This document shows positions 13,997-23,546 of a stretch of DNA of 64,000 nt, one piece after another. The number at the start of each line of letters is the position of its first letter. Position 1 is the stretch's first letter. Location of the stretch: assembly GCF_031455295.1 (NCBI RefSeq), contig NZ_JAVDSL010000004.1:248001-312000 (forward strand), read 5' to 3'. The translations under genes were made by a program, and so were the position numbers. This stretch comes from Leifsonia sp. 1010. Its GTDB lineage: Bacteria; Actinomycetota; Actinomycetes; Actinomycetales; Microbacteriaceae. Under the pieces are notes generated by a model, which was not told the DNA's origin, ran no database searches, and saw nothing but the letters and a program-made list of their open reading frames with translations.

Positions 13997-15835
13997 TCAG
14001 GAACCCTGCACCGGGATGGTGAGCTCGATGATCGTGCCGAGGCCCTCGACCGAGCGCACCTCGGCCCGGCCGGACACGGCCTCCACCCGGTCGCGCAGGC
14101 CCTCGAGACCGCCGCCCGGCTCGATGCGGGCGCCGCCCTGTCCGTCGTCCTTCACGATGACGGTCACCGTCGCGTCCGCACGCGACACCGTGACGGTGCA
14201 CGTGCGAGCGCGCGCGTGCTTCGCAGCGTTGGCGAGCGCCTCCGAGACGCAGTAGTAGATGGTCTCCTCCACGACCTCGGGCAGCCGGTCGACGATGTCC
14301 ACGTGGACCTCGACCGGCACGTGACTCCGGAGTCCGAGCTCCTCGATCGCCGAACGCAGGTCGCCGTCGCTCAGCACCGTGGGGTGGATGCCGCGGGCGA
14401 GCTCCCGCAACTCGCGGAGGGCGTCCGCGAGCTGCTCGGACGCGCGCTGCAGGTCGCCGGCGAGCTCCTCGTCGCCGTGCGCCTCGGCCTTCGACGTCGC
14501 GATGCGGAGGCTGATGGCCAGCGAGACGAGCTGCTGCTGGCTGCCGTCGTGGAGGTCGCGCTCCAGCTTCCGGCGAGCGAGGTAGCCTTCCTCGACGATG
14601 CGCAGCCGCGACTCCCGCAGTTCCTGGATGGTGCGCTCCAGCCTCCCGCGCAGCCGGTCGTTGTCGACGGAGAGCAGGAGCGCCGACGAGACGGCATCGA
14701 GAAGGCGGTCGTCCTGGCTGAGTGCCACGTCGTGCTCGATGAGGGCGATCGGTCCCTGATCCGAGTCGATAGCGAGCACCGAGCGACCCGGCCGGTCGGT
14801 CGGACCGGCGTCCGGCATCGGCCTTCCGTCGCTGGTCTGGTAGCTCTGCAGCGGCTCGTCCCACCAGAACACGCGCAGGGATCCGTCGTGCAGCATCCGC
14901 GCGAGGCTCGACTCCCACAGACCGCGGTCGACCTTGTCGCGCGCGACGATGACGAGGTCCGCCATCCGCGAGCGCAGTCCCCGCGCGTAGAGCACACCGC
15001 CGACGAACGCCGGAGGGATCAACGCGATCGCGACCGGCGGGATGAACTGCAACCATCCGCCGTCCCAGCCGAACGCGAAGCTCAGCGAGTCCTGCACCGT
15101 GCCGTAGCACCAGAGCAGGATGGCGAGCGGCATCACGAAGGCCACCCGGCGGGCCGGGAGGGAGCTGGTGAACCAGCGGGCGATCAGGCGGGCCGCGACG
15201 GTCAGCATGAGCGCGAGCCCCACGAAGCGCCACGCCAGCCCCAGCCAGTAGTCGGCCGTGTCGCTGGGCAGCACGGCGTAGGGATTCATCACGCACCCGC
15301 ACTCGGTCGGCTCGGGCGACGAGAACAGCAAGGTGCCGCCGAGACGCACCGCGAAGGCGATGGAGATGGCCAGCAGAATGGCGCGGTCGAAACGCGCGAC
15401 CAGCCTCCCCGTCGGGTAGCAGAGCACGAGGAGCCCGACCAGCACCGCCCACAGGTCCGTCACGCCCTGCACCCACGGCCACACCCAGCCCCACTGCCGG
15501 ACCAGCGGATACCAAGCGCCCGCCGACCAGAAGAAGGCGGCCCCGACCATCAGCCAGCCGGGGATGGGACTGCGCACGATCCGCCAGGCGATCACCGCGC
15601 AGACGACGTAGACGACCGCGACCGAGACGAAGACGATGGCCCAGCCGACGCCCGAGGGACGCGGCCCGTAGTCCCCGGTGAGCGCGCTGAGCACCTGCGC
15701 CGTGACGTTCGACGCGATGGCGACCGTGACGGCCAGCGCACGGAGGATCAGCCGGCCCGTGCCCGGTCGGGCGGGGGCGACGCCGACATCACCGGTGCGC
15801 GCGGCCTCCGGATGCGCCGGGAGCGCGGCATCCAT
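13997..15835 (-). CDS. Sensor histidine kinase, NarL/DegS-like with N-terminal multi-helix membrane domain
   Basis: Membrane sensor kinase of 612 residues. About eight hydrophobic helices fill residues 35-310, followed by a linker, then a HisKA_3 dimerisation domain with phospho-acceptor His429 in RDLHDGSQQQLVS. An HATPase_c domain follows (EALANAAKHARA N-box, VKDDGQGGA G-box). The ATG at 15835 lies five bases after the response-regulator stop. The gene is co-transcribed with the regulator. The stimulus is unknown. Confidence 0.9.
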   Translation of the reverse strand: MDAALPAHPEAARTGDVGVAPARPGTGRLILRALAVTVAIASNVTAQVLSALTGDYGPRPSGVGWAIVFVSVAVVYVVCAVIAWRIVRSPIPGWLMVGAAFFWSAGAWYPLVRQWGWVWPWVQGVTDLWAVLVGLLVLCYPTGRLVARFDRAILLAISIAFAVRLGGTLLFSSPEPTECGCVMNPYAVLPSDTADYWLGLAWRFVGLALMLTVAARLIARWFTSSLPARRVAFVMPLAILLWCYGTVQDSLSFAFGWDGGWLQFIPPVAIALIPPAFVGGVLYARGLRSRMADLVIVARDKVDRGLWESSLARMLHDGSLRVFWWDEPLQSYQTSDGRPMPDAGPTDRPGRSVLAIDSDQGPIALIEHDVALSQDDRLLDAVSSALLLSVDNDRLRGRLERTIQELRESRLRIVEEGYLARRKLERDLHDGSQQQLVSLAISLRIATSKAEAHGDEELAGDLQRASEQLADALRELRELARGIHPTVLSDGDLRSAIEELGLRSHVPVEVHVDIVDRLPEVVEETIYYCVSEALANAAKHARARTCTVTVSRADATVTVIVKDDGQGGARIEPGGGLEGLRDRVEAVSGRAEVRSVEGLGTIIELTIPVQGS

Positions 15836-15839
15836 GGGG

Positions 15840-16523
15840 TCAGGCGTCCCGGCCGAGGAAGCGCAGCACCGCGAGCACCCGTCGATGGCCCTCGGCGGAG
15901 TCCTCCACACCCAGCTTCGCCATGATGTGCCCGATGTGGGATTCGACGGTGCGGAGGCTCAGGTGCAGCTCGGTCGCGATGCCGACGTTCGACTTGCCCT
16001 CCGCCATCAGCCGCAGCACGTCCCGTTCCCGTGAGGAGAGCGACTCGACCGTCGCCTCCGACGACCGCGCGGTGACGAGCAGCTGCACGACTTCCGGATC
16101 GACGACCGAGCCGCCGCGCGCGACGGTGCGGACCGCGGTGACCAGGGTGTCGGCGTCGGCGACGCGGTCCTTGAGCAGATAGCCGGTGCCGCTGCCGGCG
16201 CTCATCGCGCGGATCGCGTACGACGCGGTGGTGTACATGGAGAGAAGCAGGATGCCGGCGCGCGAGCCGCTCGCTCGCAGGCGTTCGAGAGCCCGCAGCC
16301 CCTCGTCGGTGTGGGTGGGCGGCATCTTGATGTCGAGGACGATCGCGTCCACATCCCCGTCGGTCGCGACGGCGCGCAGGAGTTCCTCGGCGGTGTCCAC
16401 CGAGGCGACGACCTCCATACCGCCCGCGCGCAGGATCTGTCCGATCCCCTCGCGCAGCAGCACTGCATCGTCGGCGACGGCCACTCTGAGCGCGCGAGAC
16501 TCTACAGTCTGTCCCCCGCTCAC
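15840..16523 (-). CDS. Response regulator, NarL/LuxR family
   Basis: DNA-binding partner of the adjacent kinase, 227 residues. The receiver domain has the acidic pocket ADD at 17-19, phospho-Asp64 (VLDIKMPP) and Lys in LLKDRVAD. The LuxR helix-turn-helix covers about 160-205 (LSSRERDVLRLMAEG). The GTG start has no ribosome site but has TAAGGT seven bases upstream overlapping the previous stop codon, so an internal leaderless promoter is possible. Confidence 0.92.
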   Translation of the reverse strand: MSGGQTVESRALRVAVADDAVLLREGIGQILRAGGMEVVASVDTAEELLRAVATDGDVDAIVLDIKMPPTHTDEGLRALERLRASGSRAGILLLSMYTTASYAIRAMSAGSGTGYLLKDRVADADTLVTAVRTVARGGSVVDPEVVQLLVTARSSEATVESLSSRERDVLRLMAEGKSNVGIATELHLSLRTVESHIGHIMAKLGVEDSAEGHRRVLAVLRFLGRDA

Positions 16524-16527
16524 GCGC

Positions 16528-16875
16528 TTACCTTAGCAGGGTGCGGATCGCCTCACCGGTCAGCTCGTCTTTGTTGATGAAACCCTCCGCGCCGCTGTCG
16601 GCGACGCGTCTTCCGTAGTCGGTCGCCGACCGGCTCGACGTGAGCACGACGGCGGCTCCGGTCGCCCGCATCGCGGGCACGATGTCGAAGCCGCTGGCGT
16701 CGGGCAGGCCGACGTCGAGCAGGACGACGTCCGGGGCGAGGCGACGGCTCAGCTCGATGCCGCCGGCAGCGGTCGCACTGTCGCCGACAACCATGAAGCT
16801 CTCCAGGCGGAGCAGCTCCGCCGCCTGTTCACGGAACCGCTCGTGGTCGTCGACGATCACAACGCGGAGGTACAT
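16528..16875 (-). CDS. Stand-alone receiver-domain protein
   Basis: 115-residue protein consisting only of a response-regulator receiver domain: acidic pocket DDH at 9-11, phospho-Asp54 (VLLDVGLP), Thr/Ser in VVLTSSRS and Lys in FINKDEL. There is no output domain. It is the first gene of the minus-strand receiver - regulator - kinase unit, four bases ahead of the NarL regulator gene. It may compete for phosphate or act by protein contact. The ATG at 16875 was chosen because the receiver fold starts directly there. Confidence 0.85.
   Translation of the reverse strand: MYLRVVIVDDHERFREQAAELLRLESFMVVGDSATAAGGIELSRRLAPDVVLLDVGLPDASGFDIVPAMRATGAAVVLTSSRSATDYGRRVADSGAEGFINKDELTGEAIRTLLR
16530..16535 (-). 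promoter_or_regulatory. Possible internal -10 element for the NarL regulator
   Basis: TAAGGT, six bases before the GTG at 16523. It overlaps the TAA stop of the receiver gene, so coincidence is possible. Confidence 0.3.
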
Positions 16876-16985
16876 GGCACCATCATCTCCGCACGCACCC
16901 CGAGGTTCATCCGTGCCTCCACGCAAACGGAATGAGGTGACCCCCCGGATGTGGGCCATCTGAGCCCAGGGCCAGGATGTGAGAC

Positions 16986-17029
16986 AACCTCAACGACCCG
17001 AACGTCGAGGTTCCCGCCGATGAGCGGGA
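16986..17029 (+). promoter_or_regulatory. Two tandem stem-loops in the leader of the ODC-like gene
   Basis: First hairpin AACCTC/GAGGTT (16986-16991 with 17007-17012) extended by ACG/CGT. Second hairpin TCCCGC/GCGGGA (17012-17017 with 17024-17029), loop CGATGA. The ribosome site GAGGAG follows 14 bases later. The remaining gap 16876-16985 shows no gene. Confidence 0.4.
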
Positions 17030-17054
17030 CGAAAGTCCACCCGAGGAGATGGCG

Positions 17055-18110
17055 ATGTCCACCGCGACCCGAACCGCCGACCCGACCGGCGCCGCTGCCG
17101 CCCGAACGGACGCGGCGACCGGGGCGGGCGCGGTGGACGGCCGTCACTCCGGTCGGGGCCGACGTGGGGCCGACGAGCTGCCCGTCGTCGTCATCGATCT
17201 GACGCGCGCGGCTCGTCGCTTCCGCGATCTGCGCGCTGCCTTCCCCTGGGTGGACGTGCACTACGACGTCAGCGCTCTCGCGCATCCGGCTCTGCTCGCG
17301 ACCATCTCCGCCGAGGGCGCCGGCTTCACCGTGACCCACGACGCCGCACTCCCGGCCCTCCGCCGAGTGGATGCGGACCTCGGCCGGGTGTTGCACGCCA
17401 CGCCGGGTGCGCGCTGGCTGCAGCGGCGTTCCGCCTGGGAGGCGGGCGTCCGTCGGTTCGTCGTCGACGACCCGGACGACCTGGACACCTTCGTCTCCGC
17501 ACCGGCCGGCACGGAGGTGCTGCTCCGGGTCGACCCGGCCATCGCCGTCGCGGTCGCCCGGTACGCGTCGACGTTCGGCGTGCGCGTCGCCGGCCTCTCC
17601 CTCCCCGTCGCTCCGGACACCGCCGCCACCGACCTGGTCGCGCTCCTGCAGCGCGCCGTGCGTGCGAGCGCAGAGGTGTCCGCCGCGACCGGCCGCCGTC
17701 TGGAGCTGCTCGACCTCGGCGACACGTTCTCCGACGGCACGGCCATCCGTCCGGCCGAGTGGCCGGCACTCGCCCGCACCATCCGCTCGCTCGTCGCTCC
17801 GGCGACCTCCCGCACCACCGTGGTGGCCACGGCCGGTCGCGCGCTCGTCGCCGACTGCATCACCGTCTCCGCCGGCGCGGCAGCGCGCTTCGCCGACGGC
17901 CCGACGGCAAGCGCCTACATCGACGCAGGATGCGAGGTGGTCGTGCTCCGCGACGGAATGCGCGACGGCCTGCTGTCCCGCCTGCCCCTCTTCCGTACGG
18001 CGCTGACCCGCGAGGCACCCTCCGTGCGCCGCACCCCGCACGCCCGCACGGGCGGACACCGCACACTGCGTCCCTCCCGGGCGCGCTCGACCTGGTCCCC
18101 GGCCGGCTGA
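17055..18110 (+). CDS. Degenerate fold-III (ornithine/diaminopimelate decarboxylase-like) protein lacking PLP residues
   Basis: 351 residues. About 42 N-terminal residues look disordered; the remainder follows the TIM-barrel order of ornithine decarboxylases (VVVIDL, AEGAGFTV, the VLHATP strand, LELLDLGDTF, GRALVADCITV). In my manual alignment the PLP lysine of FYAVKCN is Ser73 in HYDVSAL, the HVGSG histidine is a proline (LPVAPD), the GGGF phosphate loop is GDTF (222-225), and EPGR is TAGR. The C-terminal Cys-Asp active-site motif is missing. It is therefore probably a non-catalytic binding protein. The ATG at 17055 has GAGGAG six bases upstream (better than ATG 17049). It is a single gene with a structured leader. 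The C-terminus is Arg-rich. Confidence 0.7.
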   Translation: MSTATRTADPTGAAAARTDAATGAGAVDGRHSGRGRRGADELPVVVIDLTRAARRFRDLRAAFPWVDVHYDVSALAHPALLATISAEGAGFTVTHDAALPALRRVDADLGRVLHATPGARWLQRRSAWEAGVRRFVVDDPDDLDTFVSAPAGTEVLLRVDPAIAVAVARYASTFGVRVAGLSLPVAPDTAATDLVALLQRAVRASAEVSAATGRRLELLDLGDTFSDGTAIRPAEWPALARTIRSLVAPATSRTTVVATAGRALVADCITVSAGAAARFADGPTASAYIDAGCEVVVLRDGMRDGLLSRLPLFRTALTREAPSVRRTPHARTGGHRTLRPSRARSTWSPAG

Positions 18111-18214: not shown

Positions 18215-20029
18215 CTACACCAGCGAGTCGCGCCAGGCCGCGTGCAGCTGGGCGAACCGGCCGGTGCCCGCGATCAGGTCGTCGGGCGTGCCGTCCTCGA
18301 CCACGCGGCCGTGCTCCATGACGAGCACCCGGTCGGCGATCGCGACGGTGGACAGGCGGTGCGCGATGATCACGGCCGTGCGGTCGGCGAGCAGCGTCTG
18401 CAGCGCCTCCTGCACCAGGCGCTCGCTCGGGATGTCGAGCGAGCTCGTCGCCTCATCCAGGATGAGCACGGCCGGGTCCGCGAGGAACGCCCGCGCGAAC
18501 GAGATCAACTGCCGCTGTCCCGCGGAGACGCGGCCGCCGCGCTTGTTCACGTCGGTGTCGTAGCCGTTCGGCAGACCCTCGATGAACTCGTGCGCGCCGA
18601 CCGCCTCCGCCGCCCGCACGATCTCGTCGCGCGTCGCATCCGGCTTGCCCAGGGCGATGTTGTCGGCGACAGAGCCGCTGAACAGGTACGCCTCCTGGGT
18701 GACCATCACGATCGCCCGACGCAGATCCTTCGGGTGCAGGTCGCGCAGGTCGACGCCGTCCAGCTTCACCGAACCCGCGGTGGGGTCGTAGAAGCGCGAA
18801 ATCAGCTTCGCCAGCGTCGACTTGCCCGCACCGGTCGAACCGACCAGCGCGACCGTCTGCCCGGCGGGGATGTCGAGCGTGAACTCCGGCAGGATGACGC
18901 GGTCTTTCTTGTAGGCGAACGAGACATCGTCGAAACTCACGTGCCCCTGCGCCGACCACAGGTCGACCGGCCGCACCGGATCCGGAACGCTGGGCTCCTC
19001 CTCCAGGACGCCGGAGATCTTCTCCAGCGCCGCGGCGGCCGACTGGTAGGAGTTGTAGAACATCGCCATCTCCTCCATCGGGTCGAAGAAGCGCCGCGTG
19101 TACAGCAGCACCGCGAGCAGCACGCCGATCGCGAGCTGCCCGTCGGCGACGCGGAAGCCGCCGACCAGCAGCACGACGCCGACCGTGACGTTGCCGATCA
19201 TCACGAGGCCCGGGTCGAAGATCCCGAACAGCTGGATGACGCGGGCGTTCACATCCCGGTAGTCCTCCACCAGCCCGCCGAAGTCCTTCTCGTTGCGTTT
19301 CTCCTTGCGGAACGCCTTGACCGCGCGGATGCCGGTCATGGTCTCCACGAAGTGCACGATCAGCTTCGCCGACGCCACCCGCGAGATGCGGAAAAGCACC
19401 TGCGAGCGCTTCTGGAACCACCGTGTCAGCAGGTACAGCGGCACGAGCGACACGAGCAGCACGACACCGCTGATCCAGTCGATCGAGAACAGCGCGATCG
19501 CGATGAACAGCATGTACAGGAAGCCCTGGACCAGCTGGTTGATGCCCGAGTCGAGCAGCTCCCGGATGGAGTCCAGGTCGCTCGTCTGGCGCGAGATGAT
19601 CCGGCCGGACGTGTACGACTCGTGGAACTCGAGCGACAGCTTCTGCGTGTGCAGGAACACCCGCTTGCGCAGGTCGAGCAGGATGGCCTGGCTGATCCGC
19701 GCGCTCAGCACCGTGTACCAGGCGATGAGCGCAGCGCCGATCACGCCGGTGACCAGGTAGGCGATACCGGCGGCGGCCAGCGGGAACCAATCCTGCTTGA
19801 GCAGCGCCGGCAGGCCGTTGTCGATGCCGAACGCGATGATCGCGGGACCCGCCACCTGGGCGGCCGTGCTCACGACGACCACGACGGCCGTCAGCGCCAG
19901 CCGCATCCGCAGCGGGTGCAGCAGCGAGCCTAGCAGGCGCAGCGAACGGCGCCGTACCTGCCGGCTCTCCTCCTTGCTGAGGTCGTTGCGCTCTTCGCCT
20001 TCGACGCCCAGGACGGTCGTGGTGCTCAC
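18215..20029 (-). CDS. ABC transporter, fused membrane and ATPase domains (exporter half 2)
   Basis: 604-residue half-transporter: six-helix ABC exporter membrane domain (about 40-330) then a nucleotide-binding domain with Walker [14 protein letters not shown], signature [14 protein letters not shown] and Walker [11 protein letters not shown] followed by the H-loop IIAHRLSTV. All ATPase residues look intact. The GTG start overlaps the stop of the partner gene by 4 bp (GTGA). Together they should form a heterodimeric multidrug/lipid-type exporter. The substrate is unknown. Confidence 0.92.
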
Positions 20030-21870
20030 AGGTTCACCTCCTCGAGAATCTCTTCGTTCTGTTCGTCCTCCAGGCTGGAGATGACGAAGCGGTAGTGCTC
20101 GCTGCTGGCGAGCAGTTCGTGGTGGGTGCCGACCGCGGTGACGCGGCCGTCCTCCAGCAGGGCCACTCGATCGGCGAGCATCACCGTGGACGGGCGGTGC
20201 GCGACGATCAGGGCCGTGGTCGAGGCGAGCACCCGGCGCAGCGCGGCCTCGACGAGCGCCTCGGTGTCGACGTCGAGCGCCGACAGCGGGTCGTCGAGCA
20301 CCAGGATGCTGGGGTTCGCGGCGACGGCGCGCGCGAGCGCGAGCCGCTGTCGCTGACCGCCGGACAGGCTGAGCCCCTCCTCGCCGACCTTCGTCTCGAC
20401 GCCCTCGGGGAGGTCGTAGACGAAGCCCGCCTGCGCCACCTCGAGCGCCTCGGTGAGCACGCGCTCGGCCTCCGCCGAGGCGGGATCGAGGTCGTCGCGG
20501 CCGAGTAGGACGTTGTCGCGCACGGACGCCGAGAACAGGGTCGCATCCTCGAACGCCATGGCGATCGCCTTGCGCAGGTCGTAGCGGGTGAGGTCGCGCA
20601 CATCCACGCCGTCCACCTTCACCGCGCCGCCGGTCACGTCGTACAGCCGTGTCGTCAAGGCGGTCAGGGTCGACTTGCCCGAGCCGGTCAAGCCGACCAG
20701 GGCCATCGTCTCCCCCGGGCGGACCGTCAGGCGGATGCCGTCGAGCAGGTCCGGGAAGCGCTCCGGTGAGTCCTGGTACCGGAAGTGCACGTCGTCGAAG
20801 ACGAGCTCTCCCCGGGGCTCGGCGATGCGCTTGGGCTCGGCCGGGTCGGTGATCGTGTTGACCTCGTCCATCACCTCGAAGTAGCGGTCCGCCGCCGTGC
20901 GGGTGTCGAAGGTCATCGACAGCAGGAAGCCGATCGACTCCACGGGGAACCGCAGGACGGTCGCCGTGGCGAAGAACGCGACGAGCTCGCCGACCGACAG
21001 CTGGCCCTGCGCCGACAGCCAGACGCCGACCACGAGGCAGATGCCGAACGCGACGTCCGGGACCAGCAGCAGCCACAGCCAGATCCCGGCGATGGCCTTC
21101 GCCTTCTCGATCTCGGTACCGCGCAGCTCCTCCGCGCGCGACTCGAAGGTCTTCAGCGCGTGCTTGCCGCGCCCGAACGCCTTCAGCACACGGATGCCGT
21201 GGACCGATTCCTCGACGGCCGTCGCCAGGTCGCCAGCCTGGTCCTGGCTGCGCCGCGCGATGACCGAGTACTTGTTCTCGAACACGAACCCGTAGATCCA
21301 CAGCGGGATGGAGCACACCAGGAAGATGAGCCCCAGGATCCAGTTCCAGCCGATCAGGATCGCGAACCCGACCACGATCGTGACGACGTTGACCACCAGC
21401 AGCACGATGCCGAACGACAGCCAGCGGCGGATCATGCTGAGGTCACTGACCGCGCGCGACAGCAGCTGGCCGCTCGGCCAGCGGTCGTGGAACGCGACAG
21501 GGAGATCCTGCAGCTGCGCGTACAGCGCGTTGCGCATCTTCGCCTCGACGTGGGTTCCCGGGGTCAGCACGAACCAGCGCCGCAGCGAGATGAACACCGC
21601 TTCGGCGGCACCCAGCCCGACCACGAGCAACGCGGCAGGCCACACCGCCGACGGGTCGCCCGTCGACAGCGGGCCGTCGACCAGCCAGCGCAGCACCTGC
21701 GGGATGCTCAGCGCGACGAGGCTGGCCAGCAGCGCGGCCACCATGCCCAGGATGATGCGGGGCGCGGCGGACTTCGCGAACGGGAGGATGCGCAGCAGGA
21801 TGCGCGCGGTGCTCTTCCGCTTCGCGGCGGTCTTCGGAGTCTGGGTGTTCGGAGTCTGGGCGACAGACAT
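20026..21870 (-). CDS. ABC transporter, fused membrane and ATPase domains (exporter half 1)
   Basis: 614-residue partner with the same architecture: membrane domain at about 30-330, ATPase with Walker [14 protein letters not shown], signature [14 protein letters not shown], and [12 protein letters not shown] where the catalytic Glu after Walker B is Asp-Pro (DDP rather than DEA). One non-canonical site is typical of heterodimeric exporters, where only one of the two ATP sites hydrolyses fast. The ATG has only a weak ribosome site. A leader of about 300 bases with a small ORF precedes it. Confidence 0.92.
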
Positions 21871-22309: not shown

Positions 22310-23533
22310 TCAGCGGATCCGGATCGACAGGCAGGTGACGCATCCCTCGAGCTTCTCGAACTCCGAGATGTCGACCTGGATGACGGTGTAGCCGAGGTCC
22401 TCGACCAGCGCCACCGACTGCGGGGCCGACGACGACATCAGCACGGTGTCGTCCGAGAGCACGACGACCGCGGTGCCGTGGGCCTCCGGCACGGGGAGGA
22501 AGCGCTCGAAGACGCGCGGGTCGTCCACGATCGGCTCGTAGCCGATGATCGTCCCGTCGGGCAGCGCCGTCACGGCCGTCTTCAGGTGCAGTGCCTTCGT
22601 GACCGGCACGGCGACGACGGTGTACCCGAGCGGCGCGACGAGGGCGCGGAGCTGGCGGATGCCCTCCGCGTTCGTGCGCCCACCGCGACCGACGTAGACC
22701 GTCGAGCCGACCTTGAGCACATCGCCGCCCTCGAGCGTCCCCGGCGCCTCGATGCGCTCGAGGTGCAGACCCTGCGCCCGCAACGCGGCCTCCGTGCCCA
22801 CGACCTCCGCGCGGCGCGACTCGGCGCCGGGAAGGGTGATCACGGCGGTGTCGCCGAAGACGACGGCGGTGTCCTCCACGAAGACGGAGTCGGCCATGGA
22901 GTCCGCGCTCGCGACCTCGACGGTCTGCCAGCCGGCCTCGGAGAGGGCCGCGACGTAGGCGTCCCACTGCGCGTCCGCGCGCTCCGCATCCACCGGCTGG
23001 CGGTCGATGTGGGTCACCAGGCCCTCGGCGAGGTTGCCGGCGGGGATGCGGACCAGCGCGACCTTCCGGTCGGTCTCGAAGCGGCTGCGGGTGCCCTCGA
23101 CGACGCGGAACAGCCACCGGCCGAACGTCGGAGTGAGCGCGGTGATGGCGACGGCGTAGAGGAGGTTGATCCCCAGCAGTGTGCCGAGCACCGCGACGAT
23201 CAGGTCGCCGCTGAACGGCGAACCGCCCGAGGTCGCGGTCAGGATGGTCCCGACCGCGGGCGCCAGCACTCCGGCCAGCACGCCCGCGATCAACGCCGTC
23301 CACCACCGGTCGAACGCACCGACGAAGCCGGCGACCCAGAGCAGCACGAAGGCGATGACGCTGGTCAGCGAGAAGTAGTTGCTGACGGCGACGATCAATG
23401 CCCCCGACGGGGCCGACGACCCGGCGAGGCTCCCCACGTAAAACGCGGCGATCATCGCCGCGTGAACGACGAGGACCACCACGAGGGCAGCGACAAGGGA
23501 TGCGATGAGCCGGCGGCCCCAGGAAGACGTCAT
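22310..23533 (-). CDS. Membrane-anchored dimethylargininase (DDAH)
   Basis: 407 residues in two parts. Residues 1-135 contain four hydrophobic helices (about 9-36, 45-73, 78-98, 106-134). Residues about 150-407 are a complete dimethylarginine dimethylaminohydrolase with SVFVED (216-221), GTLEGGDVLK, His316 in LHLKTAV and nucleophile Cys401 in EGCVTCLS. The enzyme converts N-methylated arginines to citrulline and methylamine. Bacterial DDAH is normally a soluble protein of about 255-260 residues, so the membrane domain is an addition. The ATG is seven bases after TAGGTT, so the mRNA is probably leaderless. Confidence 0.87.
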   Translation of the reverse strand: MTSSWGRRLIASLVAALVVVLVVHAAMIAAFYVGSLAGSSAPSGALIVAVSNYFSLTSVIAFVLLWVAGFVGAFDRWWTALIAGVLAGVLAPAVGTILTATSGGSPFSGDLIVAVLGTLLGINLLYAVAITALTPTFGRWLFRVVEGTRSRFETDRKVALVRIPAGNLAEGLVTHIDRQPVDAERADAQWDAYVAALSEAGWQTVEVASADSMADSVFVEDTAVVFGDTAVITLPGAESRRAEVVGTEAALRAQGLHLERIEAPGTLEGGDVLKVGSTVYVGRGGRTNAEGIRQLRALVAPLGYTVVAVPVTKALHLKTAVTALPDGTIIGYEPIVDDPRVFERFLPVPEAHGTAVVVLSDDTVLMSSSAPQSVALVEDLGYTVIQVDISEFEKLEGCVTCLSIRIR

Positions 23534-23540
23534 GGGATCC

Positions 23541-23546
23541 AACCTA
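23541..23546 (-). promoter_or_regulatory. -10 element of leaderless dimethylargininase gene
   Basis: TAGGTT, seven bases upstream of the ATG at 23533, with no ribosome site. Confidence 0.5.

Follow-up and report, generated by a model that had tools for sequence, protein, structure and literature searches.

Non-catalytic relatives of ornithine decarboxylase (ODC) are best known from animals, where the antizyme inhibitors are full-length, non-catalytic homologues of the enzyme. We know of no antizyme in bacteria. Antizyme inhibitor 1, a eukaryotic protein, acts by binding antizyme (PMC6420652). The PLPBP proteins are non-enzymatic, PLP-binding fold-type-III barrels found in all domains of life (PMC9605639).

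Here we analysed a gene of Leifsonia sp. 1010 that lies within a stretch of 64,000 nucleotides, referred to as the window. We read its product as a maintained fold-type-III (ODC/DAP-decarboxylase) pseudoenzyme, descended from a PLP decarboxylase and acting by binding, a reading to which we give a probability of about 0.72. A search of PMC titles and abstract openings, with subscription journals and preprints outside it, gave no description of a bacterial PLP-less ODC homologue, or of the hydrophobic partner family reported below, among the matches listed. Nor did these matches include a bacterial ODC-family protein that is devoid of the lysine while related genera carry a lysine-bearing form of it at that locus.

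Fold and cofactor site of the Leifsonia protein

The encoded protein consists of an α/β-barrel with two ends outside it, residues 1-42 and about 301-351 (Table 1). As the earlier note had stated, the frame is intact and has a good ribosome site. The site, GAGGAG, precedes the ATG by six bases, and all Leifsonia genes compared (22/22) have one no more than 20 bases from the start. Position 17055 is the better start because an earlier ATG (17049) directly abuts GAGGAG. A chance open reading frame in GC-rich DNA was ruled out, since homology and dN/dS favour the plus frame, and an antisense frame of 400 residues (16857-18059) was taken as a GC artefact. The C-terminal tail has a net charge of +8 in the window protein and of +3 to +8 in all 22 Leifsonia orthologues.

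Table 1 Positions of the pseudo-decarboxylase gene, its parts and its neighbours in the window
Feature	Position	Strand	Remarks
Histidine kinase	13997..15910	-	
LuxR-type response regulator	15840..16523	-	
Stand-alone receiver domain	16528..16875	-	Divergent neighbour
TGAG-N5-CTCA inverted repeat, possible operator	16980..16992	+	In 18/22 Leifsonia genes; suggestive only
GAGGAG ribosome site	17043..17048	+	6 bases 5' of ATG
Pseudo-decarboxylase gene	17055..18110	+	351 aa, stop included
N-terminal extension, residues 1-42	17055..17180	+	Variable apart from conserved start (MSTATRTADPTG in window)
Alpha/beta-barrel domain, residues 43-300	17181..17954	+	Homologous to Orn_Arg_deC_N
Asp71 codon	17265..17267	+	Two residues before lost lysine
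Ser73 codon	17271..17273	+	PLP-lysine position (alignment)
Pro184 codon	17604..17606	+	His of HVGS/HVGSQ position
GDTF, residues 222-225	17718..17729	+	GGGF phosphate-binding loop position
TAGR, residues 259-262	17829..17840	+	EPGR position; Glu lost
Basic C-terminal tail	17955..18107	+	Occupies place of C-terminal sheet domain
Two ABC transporter half-molecules	18215..21870	-	Convergent; one by Pfam, other read from sequence

The window protein matched the Pfam family PF02784 (Orn_Arg_deC_N) with an E-value of 5e-12 and 46.2 bits, compared to a curated cut-off of 23.4, and 22/22 Leifsonia members matched the same family (E up to 0.1). In a single-protein search, residues 45-282 of a 353-residue reading matched the lysine/ornithine decarboxylase of V. 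vulnificus (E 4e-12), and the same residues matched the ODC of T. brucei (E 4e-9). A profile built from the 22 Leifsonia orthologues reached an E-value of 6e-35 with 2plj over positions 31-290, 3e-24 to 1e-8 with other ODC chains, and 1e-12 with antizyme inhibitor 1. The ODC fold proposed in the earlier note is borne out by these matches. Its likeness to eukaryote-type ODC holds as far as the ODC family goes, but bacterial lysine/ornithine decarboxylases are equally near, the nearest solved relatives being the Vibrio enzyme and other ODCs. Aligned with hhalign to a profile of 11 lysine-bearing proteins (see below), the Leifsonia profile gave a probability of 100 over 275 columns, with an E-value of 3e-46. 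Ala_racemase_N was not among the two Pfam hits of the window protein up to E 10, a range in which the HMMER filters drop most weak hits, and this locus was not among the five matches of PF01168 in the genome.

All cofactor-site changes that had been read from the sequence by hand were recovered in our alignment: Ser73 in place of the PLP lysine, Pro184 in place of the histidine of HVGS, GDTF for GGGF and TAGR for EPGR. The missing C-terminal Cys-Asp motif corresponds to the absence of the entire sheet domain PF00278, a domain that was found in the lysine-bearing orthologue L042 and in L046. At the lysine position, the 22 full-barrel Leifsonia orthologues carry serine (18), threonine (two), cysteine (one) or alanine (one), and never lysine, which rules out a local mutation or a sequencing error; the serine itself is not invariant. 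Lysine-bearing orthologues, which according to the earlier note would have implied such an error, are thus lacking within the genus, and those that occupy the same position in other genera show the origin of the protein. Lysine is found in 10/10 rows of these orthologues (an eleventh, L039, was read separately) and in 3/3 outgroup rows that we labelled LysA-like, and in none of the two g29 and four g63 rows.

The surroundings of the former cofactor have changed as well. Residue 71 is acidic in 22/22 Leifsonia and 2/2 g29 rows, and alanine in 10/10 lysine-bearing and 4/4 g63 rows; residue 223, the second of GGGF, is acidic in 18/22 Leifsonia rows. The glutamate of EPGR, which we take to be the contact of the PLP pyridine nitrogen, is absent from all 22, and Arg262 is retained in 17, through which phosphate may still be loosely bound. 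Of 14 positions tallied, Leifsonia keeps a single residue at only three, 77, 222 and 290, and an acidic one at 71; the others vary. We infer the placement of these residues in the pocket from the alignment with ODC, and the varying positions do not point to one fixed ligand.

The barrel could still be an enzyme of different chemistry, with Ser73 or Asp71 as a catalytic residue. Barrels are generally known to switch chemistry often, and His77 and Asp290 are invariant, next to the constant acidity of residue 71, in the 22 Leifsonia rows. We nevertheless hold this to be highly improbable: few polar positions are fixed, and the sheet domain is missing, a domain that completes the active site in ODC dimers. 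A catalytic Ser73 is further weakened by the threonine, cysteine or alanine found in 4/22 orthologues.

Decarboxylation, for its part, is not expected because the Schiff-base lysine is gone, an acid stands at a glycine of the phosphate loop and the second domain is missing. Without the lysine there would be neither a PLP Schiff base nor decarboxylation, and the protein would act by binding. Residue 71 would repel PLP, in most cases assisted by a second acid where the phosphate loop used to be. That the protein is a pseudoenzyme that does without PLP is, judged from its sequence, very likely, and a Pfam match alone would mislabel it as a PLP-dependent decarboxylase.

Lysine-bearing orthologues and their hydrophobic partner

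With the window protein as a query, 16 of 299 Microbacteriaceae matched at an E-value of 1e-10. When a lysine-bearing protein was searched against 398 genomes, positional orthologues outside the genus ranked above LysA-like paralogues among the matches listed, with some Leifsonia genes falling among the paralogues. In g26, g46 and g79, a full-length decarboxylase with all PLP motifs sits in the same block of neighbours, comprising genes for isocitrate dehydrogenase, a GNAT protein, an MGMT-like protein, a histidine kinase, a LuxR regulator and two ABC transporters. The order IDH-GNAT-MGMT-HK-RR-REC-gene-ABC-ABC was found in 23/23 gene-bearing Leifsonia, 2/2 g29 and 3/3 g26 genomes, a reading of synteny that does not use purH and LeuDH; REC was not found at the three g79 loci and the one g46 locus. 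Lysine-bearing relatives in g76, g85 and g17 lie elsewhere, and no block genes were found around them. Ten lysine-bearing proteins are 24-28% identical to the window protein. By its place and its homology, the Leifsonia protein is the positional orthologue of a full-length decarboxylase with the PLP motifs, and the conserved synteny as such may only reflect a stable region.

Two further groups stand at other stages. The g29 proteins have serine for the lysine, keep EPGR and are without the sheet domain. At the g63 locus, a full-length protein carries alanine for the lysine and LGRC for EPGR and retains the sheet domain; the ABC pair is adjacent in two of these four loci and farther off in the other two. 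Residues have thus been lost stepwise across genera, with Leifsonia going further than g29.

A tree of the neighbour proteins, made by a quick method and with long branches for L113 and L115, places g63 beside the lysine-bearing g26 (SH-aLRT 99) and Leifsonia with g29 on the opposite side, which suggests that the lysine was lost twice. A tree of the gene itself groups the lysine-less rows weakly (support 65/38), with long branches meeting, and AU tests on it did not reject two alternatives (p 0.37 and 0.22). This tree allows a single shared loss without deciding for it.

The lysine-bearing genes have a companion. A hydrophobic protein of about 160-190 residues is encoded 5' of the decarboxylase in 11/11 loci with a readable start. 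The two genes overlap in three g26 loci and share one open frame in L074, L079, L138 and L139, of which L074 is a different locus, between uvrA and uvrB (genes identified by eye). A whole-genome profile search recovered the partner from 11 of the 12 genomes that carry the lysine-bearing type and from 0/34 others, of which 29 have a lysine-less gene and five have no such gene at all. The lone miss, G125, is a genome of 66% completeness whose decarboxylase match starts after the lysine region. Across the order, the partner was present in 8/297 genomes at E 1e-6.

The partner has the motifs RYLPxExxGT, EFGPAELxDTLLxRP and GKLxADxxFY (for example L073:8118-8630, plus strand). No convincing relative was found in Pfam (11 members scanned), NCBIfam (three members) or PDB; three weak Pfam hits, each in one of the 11 members and with a best E-value of 0.096, were taken as chance. 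In a Kyte-Doolittle analysis, a segment exceeded the threshold in 9/11 of the proteins, and the partner is probably a membrane protein. In another family, coded f15, a long frame (L140 1423-3357, plus strand) begins with a hydrophobic domain resembling the partner; its 3' part does not read as a decarboxylase, possibly a frame artefact.

Partner and predicted active site come and go together. Each of the lysine-less genomes that we looked at is also without the partner gene, whereas the sheet domain survives in one line but not in the other, a pattern that gives a hint at the order of events. In the course of events that we propose, the lysine-bearing enzyme would have been tied to its probable membrane partner, and loss of the partner would have freed the active site from selection, the order of these two losses being part of the proposal. 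Leifsonia itself has neither the partner gene nor the PLP lysine, and the C-terminal sheet domain has gone as well, together with most cofactor contacts. A second loss of the lysine, parallel to this one, is apparent.

A constant functional tie between the gene and the two-component system is not supported, as the search for REC in g79 and g46 found none and synteny extends over the block as a whole. The divergent receiver gene may still regulate the pseudo-decarboxylase gene or be regulated by it. The motifs CATCCGTG and CCCCCCGGATG, upstream of the receiver gene, are conserved in most Leifsonia. They were considered as elements of the pseudo-decarboxylase gene and set aside: within the stretch searched, and allowing one mismatch, they were seen in three and four, respectively, of the five gene-less genomes, which makes it more likely that they are elements of the receiver gene. 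A pattern related to the possible operator, TGAGnCAAnCTCA, was seen with one mismatch in three of these five genomes and not in the two small ones. Farther along the window (22310-23542, minus strand), a protein combines a hydrophobic N-terminal part with a C-terminal part that resembles arginine deiminase (Pfam ADI, E 5e-9), apparently an amidinohydrolase-like domain attached to a membrane domain.

Selection in Leifsonia and the possible role of the protein

The gene was matched at the same place in 23/28 Leifsonia genomes (E 1e-10), 22 of them with the full barrel, and seven named Leifsonia records, including L. shinshuensis and L. aquatica, carry the orthologue. In G019, serine occupies the lysine position and an in-frame deletion of about 38 residues runs through the former phosphate loop. 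The gene was not found in five genomes (G003, G015, G022, G025 and G027), where the neighbours are kept and tblastn at E 0.01 was empty between them; remnants were recognised by eye in two of the five (L124, L126). In G022 (L124:7568-7907), the place of the gene is otherwise filled by a 40-base repeat in 8.5 copies; at a distance of about 7 kb (L124:14624-14794) there is another array of this kind, again with 40-base units.

We then compared substitution rates. The dN/dS values (Nei-Gojobori) ranged from 0.124 to 0.286 over 14 pairs, ten of them within Leifsonia and not all independent. The window gene and its nearest kin gave 0.137 and 0.159, and a lysine-bearing pair 0.215. For the neighbour genes, in the same two genome pairs and with the histidine kinase left out, values ranged from 0.00 to 0.32. 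The MGMT-like and lipoprotein genes (0.13-0.32) overlap the range of the pseudo-decarboxylase, which evolves faster than the receiver, regulator, GNAT, phosphate-transporter and ABC neighbours. The remaining barrel is under purifying selection in most species, in agreement with the maintained protein seen in the earlier note. Since five of 28 genomes lack the gene and G019 has its deletion, the gene is dispensable; these comparisons describe it as constrained, yet dispensable and quick-evolving. Selection in the absence of catalytic residues, the mark of a pseudoenzyme, is found here on sequence grounds in a gene absent from 5/28 genomes.

These absences, the remnants, the deletion, the faster evolution and the stepwise loss of residues across genera could also be signs of slow decay, in which a retired decarboxylase loses its function lineage by lineage and its frame stays open by inertia. 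We consider this unlikely. Full open barrels, 43-93% identical to that of the window, persist in 22 of 28 genomes; the range of dN/dS spans the lysine-bearing pair and overlaps two of the neighbour genes; and the ribosome site and the N-terminal peptide are conserved and the basic tail is kept. Under such sequence constraint, some use of the protein persists.

Binding is the simplest account of the role of a maintained pseudoenzyme, and what it would bind is a matter of more tentative suggestion. The acidic old pocket could accept a cationic ligand (an amine or a metal), and an anionic partner, a protein or other, might attach to the basic tail; this particular mechanism is a guess that we regard as doubtful. 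A bolder version has the decarboxylase converted at least twice to a cofactor-free protein after loss of its partner. In Leifsonia, the acidic pocket would then receive a positively charged metabolite such as a polyamine or another amine, and the basic tail would relay the binding event, with the divergent two-component system as a conceivable target. This is speculative and rather improbable; if true, an enzyme that makes amines would have become a bacterial sensor of amines.

The earlier note suggested that the protein may be a bacterial counterpart of the antizyme inhibitors. It would then pair with an active decarboxylase, such as LysA, and alter its activity or lifetime. The genome does encode LysA, itself a fold-III enzyme, the Leifsonia profile also matches antizyme inhibitor 1, and a dead paralogue activates its partner in the deoxyhypusine synthase of trypanosomatids (PMC3663545). 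We think this very unlikely, however. LysA is the only other Orn_Arg_deC_N match in the genome (in a fold-III search, with AAT-fold decarboxylases outside it), and the analogy is weak because no close active relative was found to protect. The Leifsonia protein, which lacks the C-terminal domain, descends from a different decarboxylase and is 18-19% identical to three LysA-like rows, while the gene-less genomes G015 and G022 still hold other decarboxylase-family matches. The proposal of an inhibitor counterpart is accordingly not upheld, and we return to a pseudoenzyme that acts by binding a ligand or partner of its own.

Comparison with known systems

Antizyme inhibitor 1 (3btn, 4zgz) resembles the Leifsonia protein by the profile match given above. 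Its full-length ODC architecture, however, is not found in Leifsonia, where the C-terminal domain is absent. PLPBP/YggS is, like the Leifsonia protein, a single-domain fold-III barrel, and it is without known enzyme activity (PMC9605639). Whereas PLPBP binds PLP, the Leifsonia protein matches Orn_Arg_deC_N in Pfam and not Ala_racemase_N, and PLP binding as in PLPBP/YggS is argued against by the absence of the lysine.

The fold-type-III ornithine, lysine and DAP decarboxylases (PF02784 with PF00278; 2plj, T. brucei ODC, LysA) share with the Leifsonia protein a homologous barrel of about 250 residues. They differ from it in possessing the PLP lysine, unaltered HVGS, GGGF and EPGR motifs and the sheet domain. 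Finally, the lysine-bearing Microbacteriaceae orthologues share the locus itself in g26, g46 and g79, and differ in being full length, in carrying all PLP motifs and in having the partner gene just upstream or in frame. Together, they and the Leifsonia gene form a series at one locus, which begins with a decarboxylase that looks intact and ends with a shortened barrel devoid of the cofactor site; other stages are represented in related genera.
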